Shown here: positions 4,784 to 35,960 of the stretch, in pieces | Layout of the letters: every line of letters starts with the position of its first letter | How positions within the stretch are numbered: position 1 is the stretch's first letter | IMG/VR virus record: IMGVR_UViG_3300045738_000594 | Span: 1 to 39,887 of that record | DNA length: 39,887 nt | Origin: a virus | Strand: one strand, 5' to 3' | Position numbers and translations under genes: made by a program | Notes under the pieces: generated by a model | Told to the model about the DNA's origin: nothing | Databases searched by the model: none | The model's input: only the letters and a program-made list of their open reading frames with translations

Positions 4784-5298
4784 GTTTTATGTTCCCACAC
4801 TGATCGGGAACACTTCCGACTCCGGCCCACATTCAACTCCACCAAATGGAATGACTGCGCCATCTCCTCAATCTGGTTGGCTCCCTTTCTCAAATCGACA
4901 ATGATCGTGCCGCCCGGTCTAAGGCTCCTCTTCACCAAGTCCATATAAGTATGTATCGGGTAGTGGAATCCCCAACTTTTGAGACTGATAATCAGGTCGG
5001 CTGGAATGGTCAATCTCGGGTTGGCCGTGTAGCCAATGGCCTTACACATCCCCAGCATCTTCACTTTCCTGACTGCATGGGTTACGTCTTTCCACGGATT
5101 TGTTCCTTCTGGGTGCCACCCCATCTGACTACGGCACTTGCTGTTACCGTCCATCAGGTGAACTTCGATAGGGCGCAGAGATGGAACGAGGAGTTTGTGG
5201 ATGAGGCCCGAGCCACAACCGATATCGAGAACGCTGATAGGCTTACCGCACCAGTTAGCGATATCGTACCAGTCCTTGGCTTTATTCTCCTCGCTCAT
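4780..5298 (-). CDS. Class I SAM-dependent methyltransferase
   Basis: A 172-aa protein with SAM-binding motif I VLDIGCGSG near residues 23-31, an acidic motif II (HLMDGNS) and a late strand (GGTIIVDLRKG) typical of class I methyltransferases. Start ATG 5298 overlaps the stop of the upstream fusion gene (ATGA). Longer readings upstream in the same frame overlap the preceding coding region and were rejected. Target (glycan, protein or small molecule) unknown. It is the second methyltransferase domain in a row. Confidence 0.75.
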   Translation of the reverse strand: MSEENKAKDWYDIANWCGKPISVLDIGCGSGLIHKLLVPSLRPIEVHLMDGNSKCRSQMGWHPEGTNPWKDVTHAVRKVKMLGMCKAIGYTANPRLTIPADLIISLKSWGFHYPIHTYMDLVKRSLRPGGTIIVDLRKGANQIEEMAQSFHLVELNVGRSRKCSRSVWEHKT

Positions 5299-7504: not shown

Positions 7505-8180
7505 CCTCCCACAGCTCTGGGTGCCGCTTGATGTTGATCTTCTTCACCTTCTTGCGCGTCGGGTTTTTTTTAAACTGCCGCTCCTCGCCGCCGACATTCT
7601 GCCTGTGTTTCCGCTTGGATTGGACGAGGTTTAAAGTCAGGGTGTTTCTATACTCCCCCTCCGGCCCAGTGAACACCGGCACCTGATGCCAGCTATCATC
7701 ATTCTTAATCATCCAGACGCCGCGGTTGATCTTCCAAGGCACTGGCGTCCACGGCCCCTCCTGCTTCGGCGCAAACTCGGTCGGAGCCGGGACGCCGGAA
7801 TGATAGATGACGATGGACAGCACCTTCACATCGCTGTCGGTGTGGGGAAACAGGTAGCCGCCGTTGGTTACAAGGGAGGAAAATTCCATCCTGCCATCAT
7901 CGGCCCTGACATCGAAGACGCTCCGGCCCCAGTCGCGGAAGCCGTCTCCAGCGATCCATCTGAAGAACGGGAGGAACGGCCCGAGGTAAGGCCGGAACTC
8001 TTTCTTGCCCCGGTTGAGGTGCCACTTCTCATGGCCGTAACCACTGGCCTTACCCTTCATCTTATTAAACACCTCGACCGGCGGGAAGTAGTCGAGCAGT
8101 CCCGGCTCGATGAGGATGTCATCGATGTAGCCGTAGCTGAACGGCTTGGTCTGGAGAGTTACAACGTCTCTGGAAAGCAT
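7488..8180 (-). CDS. Fe(II)/2-oxoglutarate-dependent oxygenase
   Basis: A 230-aa protein with the metal-binding triad of 2OG oxygenases: HxD (FPHTDSD, His113 and Asp115), a distal His165 (DSWHQV) and Arg178 (EYRNTLTLNL), which would bind 2-oxoglutarate. The spacing fits a prolyl-hydroxylase-like jelly-roll core. The C-terminal 40 residues are very basic (KKNPTRKKVKK) and may contact nucleic acid or an acidic partner. It overlaps its upstream neighbour by 22 bp. Substrate unknown. A second, distinct 2OG oxygenase lies at 13064-13624. Confidence 0.72.
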   Translation of the reverse strand: MLSRDVVTLQTKPFSYGYIDDILIEPGLLDYFPPVEVFNKMKGKASGYGHEKWHLNRGKKEFRPYLGPFLPFFRWIAGDGFRDWGRSVFDVRADDGRMEFSSLVTNGGYLFPHTDSDVKVLSIVIYHSGVPAPTEFAPKQEGPWTPVPWKINRGVWMIKNDDSWHQVPVFTGPEGEYRNTLTLNLVQSKRKHRQNVGGEERQFKKNPTRKKVKKINIKRHPELWEDEGET

Positions 8181-8704
8181 GATATTTCCAAATTGAAGTC
8201 GGCGGTGACCAGAGCGAGAATATCGGCCTCGGCATCATAGTCGTGATACTTCCTTGTCAGCTTCAGGTCACGGTAACAGGACAGATAGTGTTCGTTGTCC
8301 CGGTTGACGATGTTGTCGAAGCCGAAGAGGCTGATCTCATCGAAGCCATTCTGATGGGCCATAATCACCGCCGCCGTTCCCCGGCTGAAATGCCCGGCTC
8401 TATCTTCTCTCTTGATGATCCTATACTTCTTCAGAAGTTCCCAGTCTGGTCCAGTGTTCTTATCGTAGCACCAGAGGTTTATGTCTTTGATCATCGACCT
8501 CGGATCAAGATCGAGGCGTTTGCGGCCAGTCTCTGTAAACATCAGGATGTCGGTACGCTCCCCGAAGTCATCCACGGTCATATCAACGATGGCGTCGGCT
8601 GGGTCTTTGGCGAAGCGGAGGACATCAAGATGGCTGTCGATGTAGCCGCCGAGGTCTTTCCCGATCAGCGATTGGCCGTGTCCGACGATGGCGATGTCTC
8701 TCAT
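8159..8704 (-). CDS. Glycosyltransferase-like protein (sialyltransferase/DUF115-like)
   Basis: A 181-aa protein beginning MRDIAIVGHGQSLIG, a nucleotide-binding-type strand and loop, with a later SRGTAAVIMAHQNGFDEISL segment. The pattern 'S/G-T-A... a-G-f-x-x-I-x-L-x-G-x-D' (LFGFDN) resembles GT29/GT42 sialyltransferases and DUF115-type proteins. The gene at 11603-12193 has the same two segments and looks like a distant paralogue. ATG 8704 overlaps the upstream stop. Family membership is my reading of these motifs; the transferred group is unknown. Confidence 0.5.
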   Translation of the reverse strand: MRDIAIVGHGQSLIGKDLGGYIDSHLDVLRFAKDPADAIVDMTVDDFGERTDILMFTETGRKRLDLDPRSMIKDINLWCYDKNTGPDWELLKKYRIIKREDRAGHFSRGTAAVIMAHQNGFDEISLFGFDNIVNRDNEHYLSCYRDLKLTRKYHDYDAEADILALVTADFNLEISCFPETL

Positions 8705-9555
8705 GCGAAGAATCCGTTGTGCTTGAACCAGAACCACGGCTCTCCCTTCGCCATCTCCATGCAGTTCCACTGCCAGTAGCCGACATTGTTCAGCCACTGA
8801 CGCCGGAGGCCGTCATCGGGGAAGAAGGGGGTTTCTATATCAGAAATATCATGGCCGCAAACAGGCCAGCCAATGCCACTATCAATGATGGCCGGGACGC
8901 CCGCCACCACCGCCTCGCACGAGACATTCGAGTGATGGGTGACGACACAGTGTGCGCCAGCAAGTAGGCCTTCAAGCCGTTCTTCGCGTGGGCTATATCT
9001 TGTTCCATCCAATCCCTCCGTTCCTCTGTGTTCAGGCTTCGGCCTGTAAACCACTGGTCTTTCGGTATATTTTCGGATGCCCTGAAGAGCGTGTTTCTCC
9101 CACTGGAGCCACCCCATATCGTAGGAGTGCGCCGACTTCCGGCTCATTCCGGCAAGGATAATAAAATCGCCGTGCCGTCTCGGCTCCAATCCCGGCACAT
9201 GGCGGTCGATCCGATCCGAGGGGCAGGGATTGATCATCACCTTGTCGAAGGGATGACGCTTGTCCACGGTAAAACGGTGGAACTCGGCCTGACGGGCCTT
9301 GCCCTTCTCCCTCCGGCCCCAGTAGCCCAGATCAATAAAGAGCGCATGCTTCCCCGCCTTAACGTAATCATTGAAAATAGTCCTCTTCCCATCCTTCAGG
9401 CCGTAGAAGACGGCAACGTCGGCAGAGGCTCGGCCATCGTGCTGGTATCCGAAGACGGTGGAGGTGGTGTCGCCCATCGCCTCAATGCCCTCGCGCATGG
9501 CGTCACAGATCATCATCGACCGCGCCCCCGGTTCTTTATAGATCAGCGCATGCAT
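8701..9555 (-). CDS. Capsule-synthesis-like putative transferase, paralogue 3
   Basis: A 284-aa protein closely parallel to the gene product at 9543-10385. Shared elements in order are a DVAVFYGLKDG strand, KHALFIDLGYWG, an RxxGDFIILAGMS segment, VVYRPKPE, CVVTHHSNVSCEAVVAGVPA and a C-terminal YWQWNCMEM-GEPW motif. The G-T/S-HHSN...G-V-P region is reminiscent of the nucleotide-binding end of GT-B or CDP-glycerol-type transferases. ATG 9555 has an AAGGA site 7 bases upstream. The start codon is 13 bp inside the upstream gene. Probably acts on a surface or virion glycan (inference). Confidence 0.6.
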   Translation of the reverse strand: MHALIYKEPGARSMMICDAMREGIEAMGDTTSTVFGYQHDGRASADVAVFYGLKDGKRTIFNDYVKAGKHALFIDLGYWGRREKGKARQAEFHRFTVDKRHPFDKVMINPCPSDRIDRHVPGLEPRRHGDFIILAGMSRKSAHSYDMGWLQWEKHALQGIRKYTERPVVYRPKPEHRGTEGLDGTRYSPREERLEGLLAGAHCVVTHHSNVSCEAVVAGVPAIIDSGIGWPVCGHDISDIETPFFPDDGLRRQWLNNVGYWQWNCMEMAKGEPWFWFKHNGFFA

Positions 9556-20019: not shown

Positions 20020-20331
20020 CTAATGATAGCTGATGGTCAGGCCGGTGACATTGGCGAAGGTGACGTGGAGGTCGTTCTCGAACTCCTTGCCGGGGAACGG
20101 GAACGCGATGTTGTTCTGGCTGTTTGTCGCGCTATAGGTGGTGAAGAGGGTGGTGCCGCCGGGGCCGCCATCGCGCCAAATGACCGTACCGGCGGTGCCA
20201 GCAGAGGTCTGGGTGATGGTCATCAAGCGGCATTTGCCGTTGACCATTGTCGCCGTCGCCGCCGTCGATTTGACATCAATAGCCTCTGGATGGTCCGACA
20301 TGTTGCCGAGGACTGTCTGATTTTGTGCCAT
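20020..20331 (-). CDS. Probable virion-associated protein (103 aa)
   Basis: A 103-aa Thr/Gly/Asn-rich protein with alternating beta-prone segments (CRLMTITQTSAGTAGTVIWRDG) and FPFPGKEFENDLHVTFANVTG near the end. It has neither signal peptide nor transmembrane segment. Composition is similar to the decoration-like protein at 14720-15331. The start ATG 20331 follows directly after the upstream stop. It probably is a small beta-sandwich virion protein (inference from composition and neighbours). Confidence 0.6.
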   Translation of the reverse strand: MAQNQTVLGNMSDHPEAIDVKSTAATATMVNGKCRLMTITQTSAGTAGTVIWRDGGPGGTTLFTTYSATNSQNNIAFPFPGKEFENDLHVTFANVTGLTISYH

Positions 20332-21265: not shown

Positions 21266-21487
21266 TCAGTCGATGATCTTTTGGTCAACTGCTTGCTTGA
21301 GGAGTTCGAGGGAGGCCTTGTGGCCGCATTCGTTGATCATGCCCCTGATCACCAGCGGACTGGGGTCCAGTTTGCCGGGATGCTGTCGCCGGTAGGCCAT
21401 CAGGGTGATCTTGTAAAGCCGGTCGATGTCCTTCGGATCGAGGGTGTCGATGAAATTGATAGGCACATCGTACAAGGGCAAGCTCAT
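21266..21487 (-). CDS. Small hypothetical protein after terminase
   Basis: A 73-aa helical protein starting MSLPLYDVPINFIDTL with a Cys/His-containing end (MINECGHKASLELLKQAV). Start ATG 21487 overlaps the terminase stop by 4 bp. Longer readings extend into the terminase gene in another frame and were discarded. No family recognised. Confidence 0.6.
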   Translation of the reverse strand: MSLPLYDVPINFIDTLDPKDIDRLYKITLMAYRRQHPGKLDPSPLVIRGMINECGHKASLELLKQAVDQKIID

Positions 21488-22932
21488 GCCGGTCGAACCA
21501 TGTCGGCGGTCGGTTGGTTGGCGGCATTGGCATATCCGGTTTTCGGCGTTGTCTTCACCAGCATCTCGCCCTTGCCGTAGCCGAGGTTGAGATACTGGCC
21601 CGCTTCGGCAACATGGGAGTAGTGGTTCTTGTCCGGCTTCTCGGTGTACCGCTCGTCGCCCGCGATCCGCATCCGCCGGAAGCAGTATCCGCCCGCCATC
21701 GCCTTGCGGAGCTTGCGGCAGTTGGGCGAGATCACGAGGCCGGGATCGCCGTCTATCAGCCGCCCAAGGGGGACGGCGACGGCTTCGCGTCTGGGGGTAA
21801 AGAGATTTGTCTCGGTCGGGGTGAAGGGGAGGCCGTTGGCGCGGAGGATGTCGAAGACGGTTTGCTCGTCGGTCGGCGCACGTTGCGAACCGGCGGGATC
21901 GCCGTGCATGCCGCTGATCTCGTAGTCGTTCCAGTCGCGGTTCAGCTTCCCGACCAATGCCTCGGCGAACCTCTGCGCCCCGGCATCTTCCATGATCAAC
22001 TCGTCCAGCCACCTGATCTGGCCGTTGGGTGCCTCCTGTCCGATCACCGCCGCCGGGGTCAGGCCGAAGTCGGCCCCGACCTCGATGGAGATGTTGGGGA
22101 TCGGATCGATATCGATACAGTGGACGCTGTCGTTGTATTCGGTGTAGACCGGCTTGCCGTCCTGAACGAACCCGTACTCGGCCCCGAGGAAGACCTTGAT
22201 CCAGTCCTCCTTGTTGCCCGGTATCTGGTCGAGGTAGTAGCTCTCTGGGAGGTTCTCAAGGTTCTCGGCCCTCGGGTTTAACTTCCAGAGGTCACCCACC
22301 TTTATGACGCCGCCGGGCTGTTTGAAAAACGACCAGCCCTCCGGCTTCTCCTCCTCGGCCCGTTCATAAAGCCAATGATCCTCGTCCGGCATGTTGGTGT
22401 CGGCAAAGAGTCCGTACCATGTCGGCCCGCCGTCCTTCATGGATGGAAAGCGCCCGCAACGCGACCTCGCCATCCTGACGATGGGCCAGCGGACCTCGTT
22501 GATCTCGTTGACCCAGCACCCGGTGAGCAACATGCCTCTGAGGGCGTCCTCCACATTTGGGCCGTCGAGGGCCATGAAGATCACCTCGCAATGGACCGTG
22601 GTCCCGTCCGGCAACCCGAATTTCATATTGTGGTCCGGCGGGTGGCCCCACCGCATCTGGCCGAATTTATCGCCGAATATCTCGTGCCAGCTCTTGATCG
22701 TCGTCGTCTCCAACTCGGGGTAGGTCGAGCGGATCACCAGCCACCTCGAATAGCGGATGCCGTCATGGGCTGGTTCCTGCTGAACGGCGCGGATGTAGAT
22801 TTCCATAACCGCCGCCGTAGTCTTGGCCGATCCAATCGGACCCATCAGGAAGCGCATGCGGTCGTCGCACAGGTGGAAGTCCACCAGTGTGTCGCCCATC
22901 GGTTCATATTCGAGTTGAGCAGTGTTACGCAC
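21484..22932 (-). CDS. Terminase large subunit
   Basis: A 482-aa packaging ATPase-nuclease. Walker A is GPIGSAKT (residues 31-38); the Walker B-type strand with catalytic acid is MLLTGCWVNEINE (135-147). The RuvC-like nuclease domain begins at EVGADFGLT with Asp289, and a further acidic patch lies around GMHGDPAG. Start GTG 22932 was chosen because it follows GAGGAGG and precedes Walker A by about 30 residues; frame extension upstream lies within the preceding gene. It packages DNA through the portal, assisted by the small subunit at 23517. Confidence 0.88.
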   Translation of the reverse strand: MRNTAQLEYEPMGDTLVDFHLCDDRMRFLMGPIGSAKTTAAVMEIYIRAVQQEPAHDGIRYSRWLVIRSTYPELETTTIKSWHEIFGDKFGQMRWGHPPDHNMKFGLPDGTTVHCEVIFMALDGPNVEDALRGMLLTGCWVNEINEVRWPIVRMARSRCGRFPSMKDGGPTWYGLFADTNMPDEDHWLYERAEEEKPEGWSFFKQPGGVIKVGDLWKLNPRAENLENLPESYYLDQIPGNKEDWIKVFLGAEYGFVQDGKPVYTEYNDSVHCIDIDPIPNISIEVGADFGLTPAAVIGQEAPNGQIRWLDELIMEDAGAQRFAEALVGKLNRDWNDYEISGMHGDPAGSQRAPTDEQTVFDILRANGLPFTPTETNLFTPRREAVAVPLGRLIDGDPGLVISPNCRKLRKAMAGGYCFRRMRIAGDERYTEKPDKNHYSHVAEAGQYLNLGYGKGEMLVKTTPKTGYANAANQPTADMVRPA

Positions 22933-26876: not shown

Positions 26877-26885
26877 TGACTGGAG
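26877..26885 (+). promoter_or_regulatory. Extended Shine-Dalgarno TGACTGGAG (first of a family)
   Basis: The exact nonamer TGACTGGAG precedes plus-strand genes at 26877, 28363, 29354, 29949, 30330, 31588, 32421 and 35947, usually 6-9 bases before the start codon. GACTGGAG appears at 33302 and 34861, ACTGGAG before 30702, and AGACTGGAGG on the minus strand before 35880. The 5-base extension TGACT goes beyond ordinary anti-Shine-Dalgarno pairing and is absent from the structural genes examined. Confidence 0.75.
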
Positions 26886-26893
26886 AAGACAAA

Positions 26894-27097
26894 ATGACCA
26901 AAGTGACCAACTACTACACCCTCCTCGTCCTCGAAGATGACCGCTGGGTCAACGCCTTCGGCGACTACGACCGTGATGTGGTGAAGCAAGAGATCGAAGA
27001 CAGCTACGCCGATACGAAGACCAAGATCATCACCACCGGCCCAGACCAACTGACCATCGACCGCGCCGTTGGCGGCCTGAACAAGGAGACCATATAA
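26894..27097 (+). CDS. Small hypothetical early protein (67 aa)
   Basis: A 67-aa acidic protein from ATG 26894, placed 8 bases after TGACTGGAG; an upstream TTG in the same frame lies within the leader and was rejected. Sequence MTKVTNYYTLLVLEDDRWVN suggests a small alpha/beta fold. It is the first gene of the rightward operon and thus likely expressed early. No family recognised. Confidence 0.7.
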   Translation: MTKVTNYYTLLVLEDDRWVNAFGDYDRDVVKQEIEDSYADTKTKIITTGPDQLTIDRAVGGLNKETI

Positions 27098-27244
27098 ATG
27101 ACCACCACCATGAAAAAGTACTTCTGTGGCCTCGCTGGCCTGTTTGCCGTCTGCGATCCAAATGCAACCAGCCTCGAAACGGCCCTCGCCGTAACCCTCG
27201 CGACAGGCTTGGTCCTGATGGCCCTCTGGGACTTGGAGGTCTAA
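27098..27244 (+). CDS. Tiny membrane protein (48 aa)
   Basis: A 48-aa reading frame from ATG 27098 directly after the previous stop, with AAGGAG 14-9 bases upstream. Residues about 25-45 (LETALAVTLATGLVLMALW) form a likely transmembrane helix. The next gene, also membrane, begins two bases after its stop. Pairing of two small membrane proteins suggests they act together. Function unknown. Confidence 0.6.
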   Translation: MTTTMKKYFCGLAGLFAVCDPNATSLETALAVTLATGLVLMALWDLEV

Positions 27245-27246
27245 CG

Positions 27247-27525
27247 ATGACCGACACTTTTCTCGACGGCACCATTTTCGGCGTGATCGACAACGCCGTC
27301 CTGATCGTCGGCGCTTTCACCGGCCTTGAGGTCGAGCGGTTCCTGCCGTTCAAGACCGTTGGACTGGGCGCTGTGATCGGGGCCGGTTGCGGCAACGCCG
27401 TCTCCGATCTGTTGGGCGGATTGCCCATCGATCTGGGCTTCGCCATCGGCACCTTCGCCGGTTGCCTCGCCGCCCTCGTCATCATCCCGCTGTTTGTGGC
27501 GGCCAAGCAAGAGGTGACCGAATAA
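27247..27525 (+). CDS. Small membrane protein (92 aa)
   Basis: A 92-aa protein with two to three hydrophobic helices (IDNAVLIVGAFTGL; VGLGAVIGAGCGNAVSDLL; GFAIGTFAGCLAALVIIPLF) and a charged end. GGAGGT lies before ATG 27247. It ends overlapping the PP-loop gene start (TAATG). Possibly an early inner-membrane protein for exclusion or host takeover; the sequence gives no direct clue. Confidence 0.68.
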   Translation: MTDTFLDGTIFGVIDNAVLIVGAFTGLEVERFLPFKTVGLGAVIGAGCGNAVSDLLGGLPIDLGFAIGTFAGCLAALVIIPLFVAAKQEVTE

Positions 27526-28376
27526 TGACCCGCATCCTCTCCTTCGGCGGCGGCGTCGATAGCACCGCTCTTCTGGCGATCAACCTGAACCGGAATGTGG
27601 CGGCGGCCCGACTGGGCATCAGCCGCGACGAGTTGGATCGGAAGTTCCCGCCGGTCGATGCCGTGACCTTCGCCGATGTCGGATCGGAGTTTCCCTCGAC
27701 CTACACCAACGTCGAGTATGCCAAGGGCCGGTGCGAGGCCCAAGGCCTCCGCTTCGAGGTCGTCAAGCACGGCACCGACACCCTCCGCGACCAGCTCGAC
27801 CGGACTGGCACCGTGCCGCTCCTGCCGGGCGGCGGCCACACATGCTCGGTGAAGTACAAGAAGACCGTCCAGCATAAATGGGCCGCCGCGAACTACACCG
27901 GCACCGTCTACTGGGCCATCGGCATCGAGGCCAACGAGAAGAGCAGGACGTTCAGCACTGGGTCCACCGAGCGGCACCAGTCCACCTTCCCTCTTCAAGA
28001 GCTTGGGCTGGATCGGGCCGCATGCCAGCAACTCCTCATCGACCTCGACTGGGGAGTGCCGGTGTCCAAGTCCTCCTGCTACTTCTGCCCGTTTTTCAAG
28101 CGGCACGAGATCGAGAACCTGTACCGCAACCACCCGGCCCTGTGGGCCGAGGTCAAAAAGATCGAGGACAACTACCGCGCCACCTCACCGGCCAAGCATC
28201 AGGCATGGATCGACGGCGGGCGTCAGCTCCGAGGCAAGAGCCAACGTGCGCCGGTCGGCCAGTGGAAGGAAGATAGCTGGGCCAAAGGCGGTCGCCTCTT
28301 CGGCGGCCTCAAGATCAACGGCAAAGCCCTCTCGATCCGCGAGTGGGAAGCCAAATTCGACCTGACTGGAGAATAG
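27525..28376 (+). CDS. PP-loop ATPase, PAPS reductase-like
   Basis: A 283-aa protein with the PP-loop SFGGGVDSTA (residues 6-15), which binds ATP pyrophosphate in the PAPS reductase/N-type ATPase fold, then TFADVGSEFP. A conserved-looking Cys107 (GGGHTCSVKYKK) and a CYFCPF pair (Cys185, Cys188) follow, recalling sulfur-handling or zinc-binding members. ATG 27525 overlaps the upstream TAA. Its last codons encode LTGE, which is also the extended ribosome-binding site of the ArdC-like gene. It may adenylate or thiolate a nucleic acid base or cofactor; it is not a QueC by motif. Confidence 0.78.
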   Translation: MTRILSFGGGVDSTALLAINLNRNVAAARLGISRDELDRKFPPVDAVTFADVGSEFPSTYTNVEYAKGRCEAQGLRFEVVKHGTDTLRDQLDRTGTVPLLPGGGHTCSVKYKKTVQHKWAAANYTGTVYWAIGIEANEKSRTFSTGSTERHQSTFPLQELGLDRAACQQLLIDLDWGVPVSKSSCYFCPFFKRHEIENLYRNHPALWAEVKKIEDNYRATSPAKHQAWIDGGRQLRGKSQRAPVGQWKEDSWAKGGRLFGGLKINGKALSIREWEAKFDLTGE

Positions 28377-28377
28377 A

Positions 28378-29286
28378 ATGGCTAAGAATAAAAAGATTGA
28401 TATTTATCAAGACGTTACCGACCGTATCATCAAGGCGCTAGAAGACGGCAAAAACGGCTCTTGGAAGAGGCCGTGGCGCTTTATCGCAACTGGCGACGAT
28501 CTCGCCACGCCACACAATCTCGACGGCAAGGCCTACAACGGCATCAACGTCCTGTTGTTGGGCATCGACGGCCACAACGTCTCCCTTTGGGGAACCTACA
28601 ACCGCTGGGGGAAGGAAGGCTGTCAGGTTAGGTCCGGCGAGAAGGGGACACGGATCGTCTTCTGGAAATTCCTTCGCGTTAAGGACAAGGACACCGGCAA
28701 GGAGGACACCATCCCGCTGATAAAAACCTTCACGGTCTTCAGCGTCTCTCAGGTGGACGGCTTCGACCTCGACGCCTATGTCGCCAAGCGCACCGAGAAT
28801 GCACCGGAGCCAGCCGAGCGTCTGGAGAAGGCCGAGGCCGCCATCTGGAACTACACCTCGGTAGAGGGCATCAAGGTCAACCTTGGCGGCAACCGGGCCT
28901 TCTACAGCCCCCAAGACGACACCGTCAACAGCCCCGTCCGCGAGGCCTATAAGACCCCAGAGGACTTCTGCTCGACGCTGGCCCACGAGTGCGGCCATTC
29001 GACCGGCCACAAGTCCCGCCTCGACCGCGACCTGAAAAACAGGTTCGGGTGCCGTGCCTATGCCTTCGAGGAGTTGGTTGCCGAGCTGACTGCCGCCTTC
29101 TTTTGTTCAAAGGTGGGCATCTCCGACAGCCCTCGCGAGGACCACATCCAGTACATCGAGGGCTGGCTGGAAGGCCTCAAGAAAGACAAGCATGCCATCT
29201 TCAAGGCGGCGTCACTGGCAAACAAGGCCATCAGATACATCATCGATGGTCCCGAGAAGGCCGTCACCTTGGAGGAGGCGGCTTAG
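28378..29286 (+). CDS. ArdC-like antirestriction protein with zincin domain
   Basis: A 302-aa protein with an N-terminal ArdC-type single-strand DNA-binding region (DVTDRIIKALEDG..SWKRPW, YNGINVLLL, NRWGKEG..VRSGEKGTRIVFW) and a C-terminal metallopeptidase-like region with HEXXH (His203, Glu204, His207 in LAHECGHSTGH) plus a distal EELVAE. ArdC proteins protect incoming DNA from host restriction. ATG 28378 follows TGACTGGAG by 6 bases. Its stop codon contributes the first base of the first hammerhead ribozyme. Confidence 0.85.
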   Translation: MAKNKKIDIYQDVTDRIIKALEDGKNGSWKRPWRFIATGDDLATPHNLDGKAYNGINVLLLGIDGHNVSLWGTYNRWGKEGCQVRSGEKGTRIVFWKFLRVKDKDTGKEDTIPLIKTFTVFSVSQVDGFDLDAYVAKRTENAPEPAERLEKAEAAIWNYTSVEGIKVNLGGNRAFYSPQDDTVNSPVREAYKTPEDFCSTLAHECGHSTGHKSRLDRDLKNRFGCRAYAFEELVAELTAAFFCSKVGISDSPREDHIQYIEGWLEGLKKDKHAIFKAASLANKAIRYIIDGPEKAVTLEEAA

Positions 29287-29343
29287 TCGAAACCGCCTTC
29301 GGGCGGTCGCCGGACTGGGTGGTTCCCACCGGCCTGATGAGAC
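29286..29343 (+). ncRNA. Type II hammerhead ribozyme 1
   Basis: All core elements of a permuted (type II) hammerhead are present. GAAA 29289-29292 is followed by stem III (29292-29297 with 29302-29307, six pairs, UUCG loop). Then comes the cleavage-site triplet GUC ending at C29308, and stem I: GCCGG (29309-29313) with CCGGC (29329-29333), a two-base bulge AC, TGGG with CCCA, and a 5-base loop. CUGAUGA lies at 29334-29340. Stem II is GTC 29286-29288 with GAC 29341-29343, possibly extended by GCGG 29278-29281 with CCGC 29347-29350. Predicted cut: between 29308 and 29309. Confidence 0.92.
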
Positions 29344-29370
29344 AAACCGCAACTGACTGGAGAAAGAGAT

Positions 29371-29889
29371 ATGACACAGACCAACATCTTCACCACCGCG
29401 CCGAAGGATTACGACTTCGGATCGACCACCGAGATCAGCCCCAACGTCGGCATCTGCATGCTCGGCATGGACAAGGACAAGCCGGTTCGCCGCATCGTGG
29501 TTGACGGCGACACCTACGATGGCCGCACCCAGATGCAGAGGTACATGAGCGGCCTCTACTTCACGAGGGACGCCGAGGGCTTTAAGAACGAGCTGTTGCA
29601 CGGCGGCGTGATCAAGGCCTCCACGAGCTGGCGGCTGGTCGAGTACCGTGGCCGTGGGCCGGGAACCGTGGGCCTGATTGGTGCCAACCTCCGCGACGAC
29701 GGCGTCATCGACTTCTGGGGCGGGGCGCACGGCAAGCACAGCGTCCTCAACGACGGCGACCTGAAACGGATCAACGCCCACTGGAAGGGCTACGTCCAGA
29801 ACACCAAGCCCAACGGCTCCCCGAGGCGGATCACCAAGGAGATGCTGAACCGCGCCGAGTTGAAGACCGGCGAGGCACTGAGCGAGTAG
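29371..29889 (+). CDS. Hypothetical protein between the ribozymes (172 aa)
   Basis: A 172-aa soluble protein from ATG 29371, nine bases after the extended ribosome-binding site. It begins MTQTNIFTTAPKDYDFGSTT and has a central RGRGPGTVGLIGANLRDDG segment followed by FWGGAHGKH. No cysteines beyond one, no membrane segment, no family recognised. It is bracketed by two hammerhead ribozymes, so its mRNA could be cut out as a single-gene unit of about 600 nt with a 5'-hydroxyl leader hairpin and a hairpin at its 3' end. Confidence 0.75.
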   Translation: MTQTNIFTTAPKDYDFGSTTEISPNVGICMLGMDKDKPVRRIVVDGDTYDGRTQMQRYMSGLYFTRDAEGFKNELLHGGVIKASTSWRLVEYRGRGPGTVGLIGANLRDDGVIDFWGGAHGKHSVLNDGDLKRINAHWKGYVQNTKPNGSPRRITKEMLNRAELKTGEALSE

Positions 29890-29940
29890 CCGAAACGCCC
29901 TTCGGGGCGTCAGCCGGGCGTCACCCGGCTCTGACGAGGC
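29889..29940 (+). ncRNA. Type II hammerhead ribozyme 2
   Basis: A second complete type II core. GAAA lies at 29892-29895. Stem III pairs 29895-29900 with 29905-29910 around UUCG (six pairs), then the GUC triplet ends at C29911. Stem I pairs AGCCGGG (29912-29918) with CCCGGCT (29924-29930), a perfect 7 bp with loop CGTCA. CUGACGA lies at 29931-29937. Stem II pairs GCC 29889-29891 with GGC 29938-29940. Predicted cut: between 29911 and 29912. As in ribozyme 1, the first base of stem II is the final G of a TAG stop codon. Confidence 0.92.
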
Positions 29941-29963
29941 AGACAACCTGACTGGAGATTGAG

Positions 29964-30332
29964 ATGAACCGCAAACGCATCAAGAGGAGTTGGAAGGCCA
30001 AGGTCAACCGCAAGGCCCGCGAGGTCTACGGCCACCGCTTTGTGGTCTGCAATGTGGCAACCCGCATTGCCAAGGACGGGTTCAAGGGCGAACTCGGGTC
30101 CGGCCCCGGCGACACCGACCTGACCTACGATCTGCTGAACAGCGATGACCTCTACGACAACTGCGAGAGGCTGGCCGACTTCAAACTCCCCTCGAAGGAC
30201 TGGTCTGGCACCCTCGACATCTGGGTGTACAGCTACGAGACGATTGCCCTGCTGGCCGAGGGCTACGACGAGTTGGAGTTCAACCTGTACGCCAAGTTCG
30301 AGAACGGCGTATTCATTTCCGTAACCGACTGA
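29964..30332 (+). CDS. Hypothetical early protein (122 aa)
   Basis: A 122-aa protein with a very basic N-terminus (MNRKRIKRSWKAKVNRKARE) and an acidic C-terminal part, ATG 29964 behind TGACTGGAG. Its transcript begins with the 3' product of ribozyme 2 if cleavage occurs. The middle (GDTDLTYDLLNSDDLYDNCE) is acidic. No family recognised. Bipolar charge suggests nucleic-acid or protein binding. Confidence 0.72.
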   Translation: MNRKRIKRSWKAKVNRKAREVYGHRFVVCNVATRIAKDGFKGELGSGPGDTDLTYDLLNSDDLYDNCERLADFKLPSKDWSGTLDIWVYSYETIALLAEGYDELEFNLYAKFENGVFISVTD

Positions 30333-30345
30333 CTGGAGAAAAAAG

Positions 30346-30705
30346 ATGACCGTCTATGATCACATCAATCCTGTCTGCTGGAAGCGGGTAACCCTCAAGG
30401 CCGTGACAAAGAAATTTGTGAAGAAGGCCGAAGTGGCTGGCTTGAAGATCGCAAATCTCAGCGTTGCCCGCACCGGCACCGTCTACATCGCGGTCGCCAT
30501 CGGCGACTGGGACGCCGAGTACCGTTGCTATGGGTCCGGTGATGAGCTGGACATCCGCATCTCAAACCACAAGTGCAGGGCTGGGGCGTGGAGCTTTGAC
30601 GACAGGACAGATAACTACACTTTTCCTCACGCCGACTTGTCCTGTGCCGACGACATCGATGAGGCCATCAAAGACGCCGTTCAAACACTGGAGGGCTACC
30701 AATGA
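30346..30705 (+). CDS. Hypothetical early protein (119 aa)
   Basis: A 119-aa protein from ATG 30346, behind TGACTGGAG. The N-terminus is basic and helical (KAVTKKFVKKAEVAGLK), followed by beta-prone stretches (TGTVYIAVAIGDWDAEYRC) with three scattered cysteines. The stop overlaps the DpdA-like start. No family recognised. Confidence 0.72.
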   Translation: MTVYDHINPVCWKRVTLKAVTKKFVKKAEVAGLKIANLSVARTGTVYIAVAIGDWDAEYRCYGSGDELDIRISNHKCRAGAWSFDDRTDNYTFPHADLSCADDIDEAIKDAVQTLEGYQ

Positions 30706-31607
30706 AAATGACAGACAAAAAGGTAATCCACGGCCTCGACATCAATGGCGAGTGGGAGGGTCAGCCGGTCATCAGCTATCTGGCCGGTGGCTCGTTCCTC
30801 GCCAGCTATTTCTACGCTGATCGGCTCCGCAAGAAAGTGGACTGGATCATCGAAAACGTGGGCCGCGACGAGGTCTTCATGCTCGACAACGGCGCATTCT
30901 CGGCATGGAAGGCCGGGACCGACATCTTCGAGGACGAGGCCTATGTCGAGGGTTTCGAGGACTGGGCCGGTGCCATCATGCATCGTTGCCCGCAAGCCCT
31001 CGTGATCCTGCCGGATCGGATCGGCGGCACCGTCGAGGACAACAACGAGTTGGCCCGGCAGTCGATATTCTACACCGACGACCGCTCAGTCTACGTTTGG
31101 CATATGGACGAGCCGATCTGGTATCTACTGAACATCGCCGAGGACCGGCATCACATCGCCTTCGGCTCGGCTGGCAAGTACAAGGCCGCCTGTGGCAAGG
31201 TCTGGGAGGCCCGTGTCAAGGAGGCCTTCGACGCCCTCGACAAGCACTGGGCCGATCCCGAGGTCGCCGCCGCCTACGTCAAACCGCAAATCCACCTGTT
31301 GAGGGGCATCGGTCAGATGAACAAGTTCCCCTTCGACAGTGCCGACAGCACCAACCTCGGCATGAACCACAACGACCGGCGGAAGGTCTACAACGAGCCT
31401 ATCCCGGCCTTCAGGGATCGCGTCGAGGCGAAGGCCCGCTCCGGCGCCCCCGGCTTCGGCGATCCTCGGATCGGCACCCCTCGTGAACTGTACCACGAGG
31501 CCGAGGCCCACGATGTGCGCTGGGCCGACGAGTTGGAGAATTATAAATTGACCCTGTCCACCGTTATCGAGTATACTGGGTCCACCGTGACTGGAGGTGC
31601 CAAGTGA
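30702..31607 (+). CDS. TGT/DpdA-like transglycosylase
   Basis: A 301-aa protein resembling phage members of the tRNA-guanine transglycosylase fold, including DpdA proteins that insert 7-deazaguanines into DNA. Supporting segments are FMLDNGAFSAWKAG (residues about 60-73), VILPDRIGG with an Asp, WHMDEP, IAFGSAGKY and, near the end, HLLRGIGQM...FPFDSADSTN. The order Asp-NGAFS, Asp, E, and DS matches the family. ATG 30702 overlaps the upstream stop. No complete preQ0 synthesis genes are present, so the base would come from the host (inference). Call is motif-based. Confidence 0.58.
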   Translation: MKMTDKKVIHGLDINGEWEGQPVISYLAGGSFLASYFYADRLRKKVDWIIENVGRDEVFMLDNGAFSAWKAGTDIFEDEAYVEGFEDWAGAIMHRCPQALVILPDRIGGTVEDNNELARQSIFYTDDRSVYVWHMDEPIWYLLNIAEDRHHIAFGSAGKYKAACGKVWEARVKEAFDALDKHWADPEVAAAYVKPQIHLLRGIGQMNKFPFDSADSTNLGMNHNDRRKVYNEPIPAFRDRVEAKARSGAPGFGDPRIGTPRELYHEAEAHDVRWADELENYKLTLSTVIEYTGSTVTGGAK

Positions 31608-32443
31608 CCAAATTCTACCACCGACACGACCATGCCTGTGAGCGGCCTGTGAAGGGCGTCCACGGCATCAAGGGCGACCGTGGCCTGATCACCGAGTTGG
31701 CGACCTGTCATCGCTGTGGCGGGGCTGGCGGCGCCGACCAGTGGAAGCGCACCGGCTGGACTTGCTACAATTGCGGCGGCACCGGCAACAAGGGCTGGAT
31801 CGACCGCAAGGTCTACACTGCCGAGAAGATCGTCAAGCTGGACGAGGCCAAGGAGAAGGCCGCCGCCAAGCGCGAGGCCAAGATCAAGGCCCGGCGTGAC
31901 GCCAACATCGACGCCTTCAAGGCCGAGCATCCCGACCTCGTTGCCGGGATCGCCGAGCTGAAGGACCACAGCCACATCCTCGCCGACTTCTGCCGCACCA
32001 TCGAACAGCGTGGCTCCTTGTCGGAGAGGCAGATCGCCTTCGGTCTGGAGTTGATCGTCTCGGTGCGCGAGGATATCGCCCGTGACAAGGCCGAGGCCGA
32101 GGAGAAGGCCCGGCGGATCGACGCCAGTTCCCATATCACCGGGAAAGTCGGCGACCGCCTCGTCATCAAGGGCGTGGTGCTGGACACGTTCTCCGGCCCC
32201 GGCGGGTTCAGGGGCAACGGCTGGACCCTGACCAAGATCGACACCGACGATGGTCTGGTCGTCTTCTGGGGATCGCTCCACACCGCCGGGCCGGACGACT
32301 TCGAGGTGTATGCCGGGAAGGGCGACACCGTGGAGCTGAAGGCAACCATCAAGGAATTTTCCGAGAGGGACGGGGAGAAGCAGACCACCGTGAACCGTCC
32401 GCACATCATCAACATCGAACTGACTGGAGAAGACAATGCGTAG
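31604..32443 (+). CDS. Zinc-finger plus OB-like protein
   Basis: A 279-aa protein in three parts. The N-terminus has two DnaJ-like CxxCGGxG knuckles (CHRCGGAGG near residue 35 and CYNCGGTGN near 54). A long charged coiled coil follows, rich in Ala, Glu, Lys and Arg (about 75-170). A C-terminal beta-rich region (GDRLVIKGVVLDTF...GWTLTKIDTDDGLVVFWGS) resembles an OB fold. GTG 31604 overlaps the upstream TGA. Likely binds nucleic acid. Another single-domain protein with similar knuckles is at 33841. Confidence 0.65.
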   Translation: MTKFYHRHDHACERPVKGVHGIKGDRGLITELATCHRCGGAGGADQWKRTGWTCYNCGGTGNKGWIDRKVYTAEKIVKLDEAKEKAAAKREAKIKARRDANIDAFKAEHPDLVAGIAELKDHSHILADFCRTIEQRGSLSERQIAFGLELIVSVREDIARDKAEAEEKARRIDASSHITGKVGDRLVIKGVVLDTFSGPGGFRGNGWTLTKIDTDDGLVVFWGSLHTAGPDDFEVYAGKGDTVELKATIKEFSERDGEKQTTVNRPHIINIELTGEDNA

Positions 32444-33134
32444 AGACGATCAGCATATCCGCGACCACTTCAAGTCCACCAAGCTTGACGGCATGGTGGC
32501 CGTTTGCGGTGCCAAGGAAACCGCTTGGGGCAATTACTTCGATATGTCCTCCCCGACCGGCGAGAACGCCGGTTGCATCAAATGCCTCAACATCGTTGAC
32601 AAGGCGAAGGCCGTGGCGATGGTCAACCCCCGCATCCTCCTCGGCGAGAGCGTCAAGGTGGAGAAGGGCGACTACCGGGACTGGAAGTCGAACACCGTCA
32701 TCCTGAACGACTTCGGAGACGTGGTCGGCTACATCCGGCTCGACAACGGCTGGGGCAAGAAGGACTGGAGGGTTCACGCCCTGACAATCAATGACACCCA
32801 CTGGGAGGACAGCAAGCCGAGCCTCGATACCACCCTCCACAGCAAGGGCCACCGCTCGAAGTGGGCCGCCCTGATCGCCGCTCGGGAAAGCTACGACACC
32901 CTCCACAACGAGAAGCGGGCGTGGGAAAACTACCACAGGGCCGAGAAGAAGGCCGAGATCAAGGCCAAGGAGAGGGAGGACGAGGACGCCTTGGAGAGGG
33001 CCGAGTTGGACCGCCAGATCAAGTCGCTCGACTTCCTCGTCCTCCAGCATCAGATGCTCGGCATCGGCAACAACGGCGTCGATGCCCTCAACGCTGGCAT
33101 CAAAGCCCTCAAGGAAAAGAGGGAGCTGGTCTGA
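32436..33134 (+). CDS. Hypothetical protein with C-terminal coiled coil (232 aa)
   Basis: A 232-aa protein, ATG 32436 behind TGACTGGAG, overlapping the previous gene by 8 bp. Residues 1-130 look globular with a CIKCLN pair and a GDYRDWKSNTVILNDFG strand; residues 150-215 form a strongly charged helix (AEKKAEIKAKEREDEDALE). No known family. Probably nucleic-acid or protein binding. Confidence 0.7.
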   Translation: MRRDDQHIRDHFKSTKLDGMVAVCGAKETAWGNYFDMSSPTGENAGCIKCLNIVDKAKAVAMVNPRILLGESVKVEKGDYRDWKSNTVILNDFGDVVGYIRLDNGWGKKDWRVHALTINDTHWEDSKPSLDTTLHSKGHRSKWAALIAARESYDTLHNEKRAWENYHRAEKKAEIKAKEREDEDALERAELDRQIKSLDFLVLQHQMLGIGNNGVDALNAGIKALKEKRELV

Positions 33135-33319
33135 TGGGGCGGCCCGTCACCCTCGTCCAGCAGTATTCCGCCGGTAGCTACAACAGCTACTCGGTGGAGT
33201 ACGGCAACAAGGGCGGCCTCCATCGCGGCCTCCCCGAAGCTCGGGAGGAGGCACTGGAGATCGCCCGCCGCTACCACACCACTGTATCTGAAACACTTTT
33301 GGACTGGAGGTCCGCATAA
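33134..33319 (+). CDS. Small hypothetical protein (61 aa)
   Basis: A 61-aa protein from ATG 33134 overlapping the upstream TGA. It starts MGRPVTLVQQYSAGSYNSYS and then a helix EAREEALEIARRYHTTV. No cysteines, no membrane segment. It was selected over longer overlapping frames because of coupling on both ends. Function unknown. Confidence 0.65.
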   Translation: MGRPVTLVQQYSAGSYNSYSVEYGNKGGLHRGLPEAREEALEIARRYHTTVSETLLDWRSA

Positions 33320-33528
33320 TGTTTACCACCAACCTCAAAATCAATGTCTTCGAGAACAATCAGGTCAAGGGGTCCAAGCCCTCGACCGACTGCGTTGGCA
33401 CCCTCATCTTCGACGGCTTCTGCATCGACGGCAAGGCCATCGCAAAACTGGTCGATGTCCTGACCAACGATATCTACAGCAACGATCCGGTGCGGATCAC
33501 CGTCGAGATGGAGGTCACCAATGACTGA
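33319..33528 (+). CDS. Small hypothetical protein (69 aa)
   Basis: A 69-aa protein from ATG 33319, whose A is the last base of the upstream stop, with GACTGGAGG nine bases before the start. Beta-prone (NLKINVFENNQV; TLIFDGFCIDGKAIAKLVDVL; RITVEMEV). Function unknown; overlaps the next gene by 8 bp. Confidence 0.68.
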   Translation: MFTTNLKINVFENNQVKGSKPSTDCVGTLIFDGFCIDGKAIAKLVDVLTNDIYSNDPVRITVEMEVTND

Positions 33529-33841
33529 CTTGCTGTACATCCCCGCCTTCCTCCGCGCTGGATCGCCGGAGAACAAGAAGGCACGAGAGGTGGGCGCCGC
33601 CCGACTGGCGGCCCTTCCCGCGACACCGAGGCCGGGGGGGTCCAGTCGCCTTGTTCCCATTCAAGGAGTTGTCCCCAACGGACTGGCGAAGGCCAAGTCC
33701 GAGGACGAGCTGAACCGGGGCTACCTCAAACAGCTCGGCTATTCGCCAACCTTCATCGGCCACATCTCCCTGAAGACCGCCAAGAAGATAGTCGAGGATA
33801 TCCGCCTCGGCTTGGGCGCAGTGAGGGAGGATCAAGCATAA
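33521..33841 (+). CDS. Hypothetical protein (106 aa)
   Basis: A 106-aa protein with a Pro/Arg-rich first half and a helical C-terminus (EDELNRGYLKQLGYSPTFIG, then KTAKKIVEDIRLGLG) that might form a helix-hairpin-helix-like unit. Overlaps both neighbours. No family recognised. Confidence 0.65.
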   Translation: MTDLLYIPAFLRAGSPENKKAREVGAARLAALPATPRPGGSSRLVPIQGVVPNGLAKAKSEDELNRGYLKQLGYSPTFIGHISLKTAKKIVEDIRLGLGAVREDQA

Positions 33842-34206
33842 TGCCGTACATCACCAGAACCCTGATCGATGAGGACGCCGGGCCGGACGAGGAGTACGAG
33901 TTCGAGGTCGAGTTCCCGGCAACCCGCGAGAAGTGCGACCGATGCGACGGCACCGGCACCCATGTGAACCCGTCCATCGACGGCAACGGCCTGTCGGAGG
34001 AGAGCCAGTCCGATCCCGAGTTCATGGCCGACTACATGGCCGGTCACTACGATGTCCGGTGCGAGGAGTGCAAGGGCGAGAAGATCGTTCTGGTCATCGA
34101 CCGCGAGGCCGCCGATCCGAAGATGCTGAAGCTCCTCGATGAGGCGGAACAGGCCGAGCGGGAATGCCGGGCCGCCGAGGAAGCGGAGAGGAGGGCCGGA
34201 GCATGA
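33841..34206 (+). CDS. Small zinc-knuckle protein (121 aa)
   Basis: A 121-aa acidic protein with CDRCDGTGTH (about residue 37) and CEECKGEK (about residue 76), two CxxC-x-G-x-G-type knuckles as in DnaJ zinc fingers; they could bind one zinc together. A C-terminal helix is rich in Glu, Ala and Arg. It overlaps the serine recombinase gene by 4 bp. The knuckles resemble those in the 31604 gene product. Confidence 0.68.
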   Translation: MPYITRTLIDEDAGPDEEYEFEVEFPATREKCDRCDGTGTHVNPSIDGNGLSEESQSDPEFMADYMAGHYDVRCEECKGEKIVLVIDREAADPKMLKLLDEAEQAERECRAAEEAERRAGA

Positions 34207-34880
34207 CCAAGTTCATCGCCTACTACCGTGTCTCGACCGCCCGGCAGGGCCGGTCGGGGCTGGGCCTCGAAGCACAACAGGCCGAGATCGAGGCATACGT
34301 CGATGGCCGGGGGGAGATCATCTCCCAGTTCACCGAGATCGAGAGCGGGAAGGTTAACTCCCGGCCCGAGTTGGCCGCCGCCCTCGCCCAGTGCAAGGCC
34401 ACCGGCTCCACACTGATCATCGCCAAGCTGGATCGGCTGGCCCGAAAGGTCGCCTTCGTTGCCAACCTGATGGAGGCGGGCGTCCCGTTCATCGTCGCCA
34501 ACCAGCCCAACGCCGATCCGTTCCGGCTCCACATCGAGGCCGCCATCAACGAGGACGAGGGGCGCAAGATTTCAGAGCGCACACAGGCCGCTTTAAGGGC
34601 CGCCAGAGAGCGTGGGGTAAAACTAGGATTCGCCGCCCCTAGCCGTCTCCAAGGCCAGCGTATGGCCTCTGAGGCGGGCGTCAGAGGCAACATAGAGCGG
34701 GCTGAGAGGCATGCCAACAAGGTAAGGCCGATCATCCGCACCATTCAGGCCGCCGGGGCCATCACACTGAGGGACATCGCCGGACAGCTCAACGAGCTTG
34801 AAGTCCTGACCGCGAGGGGGGGCCGGTGGCACCCGTCCACCGTCAACTCCATCCTCGCCAGACTGGAGGAGGCGGCATGA
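34203..34880 (+). CDS. Serine recombinase (resolvase/invertase type)
   Basis: A 225-aa protein with the catalytic N-terminal domain of small serine recombinases: YYRVST with nucleophile Ser11, GLGLEAQQAEIEAYV, and KLDRLARK (Asp77-Arg78). The long E-helix region (INEDEGRKISERTQAAL) and a C-terminal helix-turn-helix (ITLRDIAGQLNEL...STVNSILARL) follow. Length fits resolvases rather than large integrases. It could resolve concatemers or multimers, invert a segment or act as an integrase; no attachment or res site was found. ATG 34203 overlaps the upstream stop. Confidence 0.85.
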   Translation: MTKFIAYYRVSTARQGRSGLGLEAQQAEIEAYVDGRGEIISQFTEIESGKVNSRPELAAALAQCKATGSTLIIAKLDRLARKVAFVANLMEAGVPFIVANQPNADPFRLHIEAAINEDEGRKISERTQAALRAARERGVKLGFAAPSRLQGQRMASEAGVRGNIERAERHANKVRPIIRTIQAAGAITLRDIAGQLNELEVLTARGGRWHPSTVNSILARLEEAA

Positions 34881-35182
34881 CCTACGCATGGATCATCACT
34901 CAGGACCATCTTTGGACCCGTGGCAAACTCCCCACATACGACAACGAGGCGGGGGTCACAGGTCCGAGGGGCATCAGGATGACCAAGAAACAAATCCTGA
35001 AGCATCCCCAAAAAAAGGTCTTCAAGATGTACGACGACGACAACGAGTTGTACTACACCGGCCAGATCGCTGGCGACGACTTCACCGGGCTGGAGCCGCT
35101 CGATGACTTCGGGATGCCCAACGCCGGATGCACCGGCATCAAGTACAAGAACGAAACCACTGGGAAATGGGAGTACCTGTGA
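34877..35182 (+). CDS. Hypothetical protein (101 aa)
   Basis: A 101-aa protein beginning MTYAWIITQDHLW, with a core KVFKMYDDDNELYYTGQIAG and an ending TGKWEYL. ATG 34877 follows GACTGGAG and overlaps the recombinase stop. Similar small proteins of unknown role occur in many phage early operons; I cannot name a family. Confidence 0.68.
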   Translation: MTYAWIITQDHLWTRGKLPTYDNEAGVTGPRGIRMTKKQILKHPQKKVFKMYDDDNELYYTGQIAGDDFTGLEPLDDFGMPNAGCTGIKYKNETTGKWEYL

Positions 35183-35421
35183 TGGCCGACATTTTAGAAC
35201 GGCTCAAAGACACGCTTACCATCGCCAACAAGGCGGCCCTCTCCGACATCTTCAGGGCCGACTCCGACAAATACAGGAAGGCGTTGCTGGACATCCTCGA
35301 CATCGTCCACGATCCGCTCGGCACACCCGGCAAGCCCATCACCGATGGCGCGAGGCTGGTCGGGGTCGGCAGGGTGGCAACCGAGGCGCTCAAGATCAGA
35401 ATAGAGGAGGAGCTGACATGA
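35182..35421 (+). CDS. Small helical hypothetical protein (79 aa)
   Basis: A 79-aa protein, mostly helical (MADILERLKDTLTIANKAAL; YRKALLDILDIVHD), ATG 35182 overlapping the upstream stop. No membrane segment or motif. Overlaps the HTH gene by 4 bp. Confidence 0.65.
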   Translation: MADILERLKDTLTIANKAALSDIFRADSDKYRKALLDILDIVHDPLGTPGKPITDGARLVGVGRVATEALKIRIEEELT

Positions 35422-35627
35422 CAATCAAGAAACAGCAGTTCAAGAGCTGGCGGAACCGGCTCGGCTTATCTCAGGTCAAGGCCGCCGTCATCCTCGTCAC
35501 CAGCCTGTCGATGATCAAGAAGATCGAGGCCGGTATCAGAAACGCCTCCCGCCGGATCGAATATCTGATGTGGTACAACGAGGAGTACGGGCCGCCGCCC
35601 GACGAGATCAACTGGCCCGAGGCCTGA
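35418..35627 (+). CDS. Helix-turn-helix protein, XRE-like
   Basis: A 69-aa protein whose residues 8-50 (FKSWRNRLGLSQVKAAVILV, then TSLSMIKKIEAGIR) match the Cro/CI-type helix-turn-helix of the XRE family. It is the last gene of the rightward operon, just before the terminator, with GAGGAG ahead of the start. It may regulate the operon or the divergent promoter region near 35.9 kb. Confidence 0.75.
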   Translation: MTIKKQQFKSWRNRLGLSQVKAAVILVTSLSMIKKIEAGIRNASRRIEYLMWYNEEYGPPPDEINWPEA

Positions 35628-35631
35628 TGGC

Positions 35632-35662
35632 AAAACCCCCCGACATTCCTGCCGGGGGGTTT
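35632..35662. terminator. Strong bidirectional intrinsic terminator
   Basis: AAACCCCCCG (35633-35642) pairs perfectly with CGGGGGGTTT (35653-35662), a 10-bp stem with a 10-base loop. T runs follow on both strands (TTT on plus, TTTT on minus). It lies 5 bases after the HTH gene stop and in front of the convergent RHH gene end, so it can stop both transcripts. Confidence 0.85.
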
Positions 35663-35690
35663 CTCGTTCCCGGTGAAGAGAACGTCAGCC

Positions 35691-35699
35691 TGACTGGAG
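35691..35699 (+). promoter_or_regulatory. Orphan copy of TGACTGGAG
   Basis: An exact copy of the extended Shine-Dalgarno motif lies between the terminator and the end of the minus-strand RHH gene. Only short stop-interrupted frames follow it (TTG then TAA after four codons). It may be a relic of a lost gene or have a role other than translation initiation. Confidence 0.5.
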
Positions 35700-35700
35700 G

Positions 35701-35880
35701 TCAAGTTGCGGTTGCGATAATACAGACATTTCCCTGCTTCTTCAACCCTTCAACCTCCAAGCCCAGCCGCACCAGCCGATTGACCTCGGCTGAGAACGAT
35801 TGGCATCCTCGCTGGGTAGCAAAGAACCAGATTTCTTCTGGCAGATCATCATCAAATTTTATGGTGACAATTTTGGTCAT
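35701..35880 (-). CDS. Ribbon-helix-helix-type regulator (59 aa)
   Basis: A 59-aa protein with a short N-terminal strand (MTKIVTIKFDDDLPEE) and two helices (IWFFATQRG; SFSAEVNRLVRLGLEVEG), the plan of Arc/CopG-type ribbon-helix-helix repressors. ATG 35880 lies six bases after GGAGG; the full AGACTGGAGG site is the same as that on the plus-strand genes. A GTG at 35883 is a less well spaced alternative. It is divergent from the recombination genes and probably binds the shared upstream region. Confidence 0.7.
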   Translation of the reverse strand: MTKIVTIKFDDDLPEEIWFFATQRGCQSFSAEVNRLVRLGLEVEGLKKQGNVCIIATAT

Positions 35881-35895
35881 CACTACCCTCCAGTC

Positions 35896-35904
35896 TGTGG
35901 ATAA
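35896..35904 (-). promoter_or_regulatory. Perfect DnaA-box-like site
   Basis: TTATCCACA on the minus strand (35904-35896) is an exact match to the strict bacterial DnaA box. A related TGTGGACAG lies at 35909-35917, giving two CTGTGGA repeats 13 bp apart. It sits in the divergent region between the RHH gene and the recombination genes. A single perfect nonamer can be chance; the intergenic position next to recombination genes makes it worth noting. Confidence 0.4.
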
Positions 35905-35909
35905 TCCTG

Positions 35910-35938
35910 TGGACAGTACATCTGGGAAAGTTTAAGAT
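35910..35938 (+). promoter_or_regulatory. Candidate promoter for recombination genes
   Basis: TGGACA (35910-35915; one mismatch to TTGACA) and TAAGAT (35933-35938) are exactly 17 bp apart, followed 8 bp later by TGACTGGAG. It would drive 35961-38108. The overlapping CTGTGGA repeats and the divergent RHH gene suggest that the promoter is regulated. Confidence 0.4.
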
Positions 35939-35960
35939 CAACCCCATGACTGGAGGCTAT

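Follow-up and report, generated by a model that had tools for sequence, protein, structure and literature searches.

Two type II hammerhead ribozymes of the same orientation were found by descriptor to enclose one gene in a phage genome, and it is quite likely that they cleave themselves in cis while the transcript is being made, which would yield gene-sized mRNAs with hairpin-bounded ends. The window, i.e., the whole stretch of DNA analyzed, is a virus record of 39,887 bases and is judged to be a phage by the terminase, major head, and head-tail adaptor genes on its minus strand. A block directed oppositely to these structural genes comprises ArdC, PAPS-reductase-like, queuine-transferase-like, RecE-like, and RecT-like genes. 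The genes around the ribozyme pair are codirectional and separated by short gaps (Table 1). On the basis of this gene order, we assumed that both ribozymes lie on one operon transcript; a scan of positions 28378-29964, which performed near chance level, gave no promoter-like match and no terminator-like match on the plus strand.

Table 1. Features of the ribozyme-bearing region (positions refer to the window).
Feature	Position	Strand	Evidence or details
ArdC-like antirestriction gene, 302 aa	28378-29286	+	Pfam PF08401 and PF18818; PHROG 7245 (anti-restriction protein)
Hammerhead type II, copy 1	29286-29343	+	RF02276, strict descriptor, MFE fold, compensatory change in L003
Copy 1, stem II	29286-29288 / 29341-29343		GAA 29289-29291
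Copy 1, stem III	29292-29297 / 29302-29307		UUCG loop; predicted cleavage after C29308
Copy 1, stem I	29309-29333		CUGAUGA 29334-29340
Copy 1, possible pseudoknot	29321-29348	+	Loop I GGUU 29321-29324 with tail AACC 29345-29348; 4-bp run
TGACTGGAGA, RBS-like repeat before gene X	29354-29363	+	
Gene X, 172 aa, between both ribozymes	29371-29889	+	ORF
Hammerhead type II, copy 2	29889-29940	+	RF02276, strict descriptor, MFE fold
Copy 2, stem II	29889-29891 / 29938-29940		GAA 29892-29894
Copy 2, stem III	29895-29900 / 29905-29910		UUCG loop; predicted cleavage after C29911
Copy 2, stem I	29912-29930		CUGACGA 29931-29937
Copy 2, possible pseudoknot	29920-29952	+	GUC 29920-29922 with GAC 29942-29944
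Copy 2, alternative pseudoknot			GUCA 29920-29923 with UGAC 29949-29952 of the RBS repeat; 4-bp run
TGACTGGAGA, RBS-like repeat before downstream gene	29949-29958	+	
Downstream gene, 122 aa	29964-30332	+	ORF; other genes in its place in L003

The conserved core (GAAA ... H17 ... CUGANGA) is present in both copies, as seen in the sequence and by the descriptor. MFE folds revealed the type II topology for both, with stems I and III closed by loops and stem II open, and the MFE structure of each copy taken alone is exactly the three-stem junction. Applied to the window, the strict descriptor matched the two copies on the plus strand and nothing else; 300 second-order Markov shuffles of the window gave four matches in total, never two on one strand. 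Copy 2 (29888-29948) scored 52.6 bits on Rfam family RF02276 (E-value of 3.5e-8) and thus lies above the gathering score of 37, whereas copy 1 (29285-29351) remained below it with 34.2 bits; the E-value of copy 1 was 0.0023 for the whole window against 4227 Rfam families and 5.4e-7 for RF02276 alone. A score above the Rfam threshold, proposed as a check for both copies, was thus obtained for copy 2, but not for copy 1. This threshold reflects curation rather than any structural property of the class. On the basis of its core, topology, and covariation, copy 1 is, with lower confidence, a probable type II member. A chance match was ruled out by the Rfam E-values and by the shuffles, none of which had two matches on the same strand. 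Both cores and both cleavage positions (29308/29309 and 29911/29912) of the original prediction agree with the sequence, and the cores were recovered by the independent descriptor.

A feature overlooked in that prediction is a possible pseudoknot between loop I and the 3' tail. Options of 4 bp exist in both copies, for which the chance rate per single case is about 12-13%. Across 129 ribozymes with a closed stem I, pairing between loop I and tail exceeds that of shuffled partners, and in the phage ribozyme set a pseudoknot of at least 4 bp was found in 50% of cases versus 13% with shuffled partners. According to Perreault et al. 2011 (PMC3088659), such a pseudoknot is present in the majority of the type II class. 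Each copy is followed by an RBS-like repeat, TGACTGGAGA, which occurs 12 times in the window when one mismatch is allowed, versus 2.7 expected. The distance from the end of the motif to TGACTGGAG (at 29354 and 29949) had been given as 11-12 bases and has to be corrected to 10 and 8 bases. Beyond the ribozyme pair, TGACTGGAGA/G precedes many genes of the early block (window positions 26877-35956, plus strand), with or without a ribozyme before it, and far above chance.

At their 5' sides, both motifs start, as predicted, with the final G of a TAG stop codon: the ArdC stop shares this base with copy 1, and the gene X stop with copy 2. The original prediction had noted neither the upstream ArdC gene nor the conservation among relatives. 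For gene X, no match was obtained in Pfam, PHROGs, or NCBIfam, and no wider relatives were found in annotated phages or genome contigs. Its counterparts lie on two sister contigs, L003 and L124, where the gene X protein is identical or homologous, respectively, and is likewise flanked by hammerheads; a search for more sisters via the ArdC, 119-aa, and queuine-like genes returned only these two. The homologue in L124 is shorter (61% across the C-terminal part), lies between two hammerheads, and is preceded by a PAPS-reductase-like gene. All seven ribozymes of the window, L003, and L124 start on a TAG stop codon and have the core in common, and their stems differ while pairing is kept, which is what had been expected of related phages. 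In stem III of copy 1, both strands changed between the window and L003 in a compensatory manner. A recent tandem duplication of one ribozyme is not favored, because copy 2 is closer to the ribozymes of L003 and L124 than to copy 1. With the compensatory change in relatives and a layout that recurs in many phages, type II identity and the predicted single-gene excision are well supported.

The comparison with L003 also bears on a possible role at the DNA level. L003 matches the block 29284-29970, which comprises gene X and its two ribozymes, at 98% identity; homology starts at copy 1 and ends just past copy 2, and both neighbors differ, with another gene in place of ArdC on the left and other genes, followed by a third hammerhead, on the right. 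The ribozymes might hence serve as short common patches at gene ends for RecT-type annealing and cassette exchange, cleavage being incidental, and the phage does encode RecE-like and RecT-like proteins. Over all loci, about 13% of homology ends lie no more than 60 nt from a ribozyme, roughly four times the 3% obtained for random positions, and breakpoints were found at 22 of 30 ribozyme-bearing gene ends versus 140 of 306 ribozyme-free ones (p = 0.004); this modest excess is lost, however, when a narrower distance is applied (p = 0.32), and the loci are related rather than independent. Recombination hot spots at the ribozymes are therefore a suggestive lead that is not robust to the size of this distance. 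A chiefly DNA-level role, which would leave the compensatory stem changes and the invariant catalytic core unexplained, appears quite improbable, yet exchange at the DNA level can coexist with RNA cleavage.

Further differences in gene content were seen around the pair. Upstream of the ribozyme block in L003, two PAPS-reductase-domain-like genes apparently adjoin (4050-5683); window positions 27387-28376 are the counterpart of the second, and the region of the first is partly diverged. The 119-aa gene that follows the pair has a counterpart of 98% identity in L124 (5001-5386), where the surroundings are otherwise different and neither RBS repeat nor ribozyme precedes it, which suggests a single-gene exchange.

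To place the pair in a wider context, we surveyed contigs with a search pattern in which nothing but the core and the inner portion of a UUCG-capped stem III is fixed. Matches were obtained in at least 120 stretches of viral contigs and in 13 genome contigs. An Acidimicrobiaceae MAG contig (L131) carries four hammerheads at 427-2136. Among the matches listed, the strict descriptor gave 213 matches in 123 loci, versus four in total from three scans of the shuffled sequence. At positions left free by the pattern, stem III pairs in 98.5% of 137 distinct phage ribozymes versus 25% with shuffled partners; the corresponding values are 92.7% versus 4% for stem I and 80% versus 34% for stem II. At least two hammerheads were found on 48 locus-strands among the matches listed. 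The largest array among these, in locus L084 (about 4100-9500), consists of twelve hammerheads enclosing eleven consecutive single genes, and several other loci have five to seven hammerheads each. As the loci were picked for carrying the motif, the following fractions describe ribozyme-bearing phages and not phages at large: among the matches listed, one ORF fills more than 80% of the gap in 68 of 106 consecutive hammerhead pairs, and the end of the upstream stop codon and the ribozyme are at most 1 nt apart in 123 of 193 measurable cases. The ribozyme thus usually adjoins the upstream stop codon, a placement that is common but not universal. A shared function of the enclosed genes was rejected, as no Pfam or PHROGs family occurs in more than two of the 74 single enclosed genes, one of which encodes ArdC.

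The arrangement is also found in isolated phages. In Streptomyces phage Celia (L142, NC_054655), one strand carries ten type II hammerheads between 41,305 and 49,020, which occupy 10 of 14 listed gaps; seven score above the Rfam cut-off and three below, and 0-44 nt separate ribozyme and upstream stop codon. Similar sets are present in Streptomyces phages Alvy (L147, NC_054669; recorded host S. lividans) and Salutena. Sub-threshold copies thus adjoin above-threshold ones in Celia and also in L084, indicating that the Rfam cut-off is conservative. This bears on the reading of copy 1 as a decayed, inactive relic, with which no single-gene piece would be released: its 34.2 bits against a gathering score of 37 would fit, but core and three stems are intact, a 4-bp pseudoknot option is retained, the stem III change in L003 keeps pairing, and low-scoring neighbors of this kind are not peculiar to the window, so that we regard decay as very improbable. 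Regarding annotation, the start given for Celia gp71 (46426) falls within a hammerhead (46402-46460); translation more likely begins in frame at 46378, on the downstream side of the ribozyme. Alvy gp10 (20037-20111), a hypothetical protein of 25 aa, mostly overlaps a hammerhead (20031-20084) and is probably not a protein gene. Alvy further carries two type II hammerheads back to back (21404-21459 and 21471-21528), with 11 nt between them.

From the motif and its precedents, we infer that copies 1 and 2 would cleave, and that cleavage would also take place in infected cells and benefit the phage. In the proposed course of events, a polycistronic phage transcript would be cut in cis by both hammerheads during its synthesis. 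The cut after C29308 would leave the ArdC mRNA with a 3' end 22 nt past its stop codon, bearing the stable stem III hairpin and a 2',3'-cyclic phosphate, and, together with the cut after C29911, would release a monocistronic gene X mRNA of 603 nt (29309-29911). This mRNA would carry a 5'-hydroxyl and a stem I hairpin, its own RBS, and a second stem III hairpin at the 3' end; stem I of copy 2 would form the start of the next mRNA downstream. As for the benefit to the phage, the likeliest is an uncoupling of the fates of neighboring cistrons, each gene-sized piece having its own hairpin-bounded ends, in an operon with fast turnover of gene content. A ribosome terminating at the adjoining stop codon might, as an idea only, cover the 5' part of the ribozyme and time cleavage in this way. 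The Rfam and descriptor matches, the active-junction folds, the excess of pairs, the placement kept in L003 and L124, the recurrence of single enclosed ORFs and adjoining stop codons in phage loci, and the activity reported for tandem hammerheads by others (PMC3088659) argue for cleavage, whereas the score of copy 1 below the gathering score and a promoter and terminator scan no better than chance argue against it.

The ends produced by cleavage allow for two other outcomes. A 5'-hydroxyl end can also invite decay, as known for the glmS ribozyme of B. subtilis, the cleavage product of which is degraded by RNase J1 (PMC3997798; PMC11780869). The ribozymes might accordingly cut mainly to limit expression, leaving an mRNA open to 5' exonuclease and gene X expression low or transient. 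However, stem I pairs the new 5' end in the MFE fold, the gene's own RBS comes next, and the placement of the ribozyme directly past the upstream stop codon suggests that the 3' end of the upstream mRNA matters as well; we therefore consider limitation as the main purpose rather unlikely.

The second outcome is religation. RtcB ligases join the type of end that hammerhead cleavage makes. Dulem virus 39 (L146, 18460-19665), in which both strands carry type II hammerheads, encodes an RtcB-type RNA ligase. Among all other fetched loci, which are mostly fragments, RtcB was sought and not found; as Dulem virus 39 is the only case, RtcB was rejected as a general hammerhead partner. Cleavage followed by religation, whether the ribozyme itself or an RNA ligase does the joining, would convert gene X mRNA into a circle, since both cuts would give RtcB-joinable ends. 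Given the single RtcB-encoding phage, and as Perreault et al. report that circular or spliced products were sought and none was found (PMC3088659), a circular mRNA is exceedingly improbable.

It is possible, if somewhat doubtful, that type II hammerheads represent a system dedicated to punctuating the early operons of phages, with gene plus ribozyme as the exchange unit of accessory genes. One ribozyme past each stop codon, with up to 12 in a row, would then provide separately ended monocistronic mRNAs, and gene plus ribozyme could be exchanged as a unit because the ribozyme would supply the 3' end of the incoming gene and a clean 5' end for its neighbor.

Compared with RF02276 (Hammerhead_II), the window pair has the same core, closed stems I and III, an open stem II, and the pseudoknot option, but stem I of copy 1 is bulged and longer, and its score is below the gathering threshold. 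Single-gene excision by tandem hammerheads had been thought undescribed, which is wrong, as Perreault et al. 2011 (PMC3088659) and a 2017 review (PMC6155905) report such a layout. According to the former, multiple hammerheads flank individual genes or short blocks in prophages, from which single-gene-length mRNAs were inferred; three tandem sets cleave in vitro and one in E. coli, and A. tumefaciens has a triple set around the antirestriction gene ardA. The review repeats the flanking layout and calls the role of phage hammerheads open. The window pair is thus a further case of a known arrangement described in 2011. As in the 2011 sets, hammerheads of this class flank a single phage gene, and an antirestriction gene adjoins one of the ribozymes; in the triple set, however, ardA lies between the ribozymes, whereas ArdC lies upstream of the pair in the window, where cleavage is predicted. 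The triple set is the largest named in the main text of the 2011 paper, whereas arrays in the present survey reach 12. An incomplete literature search, which covered few subscription journals and the 2011 main text, found no description of the array size, the stop-codon placement, or the Streptomyces phage sets. Beyond the 2011 work, we add the pair kept around gene X in sister contigs, the motif in at least 120 stretches, the arrays, the stop-adjoining placement, and the Celia set. This exposes a layout of one ribozyme per gene, often at the stop codon, that is found in isolated, culturable phages too. As in the window, consecutive gaps of a single early operon hold type II hammerheads in Celia, Alvy, and Salutena, but the copies are far more numerous and their spacing from the upstream stop codon is less strict (see the range given for Celia). 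In phages of the Celia/Alvy type, core mutants could tell stabilizing, limiting, and separating of neighboring mRNAs apart. With the glmS ribozyme of B. subtilis, the phage hammerheads share natural self-cleavage in bacterial mRNA with a 5'-hydroxyl on the downstream mRNA (PMC3997798). The glmS ribozyme, however, has another fold, requires a metabolite, and lowers expression, whereas no ligand is expected for the phage hammerheads, and their cut is predicted to set the 3' end of the upstream gene as well.
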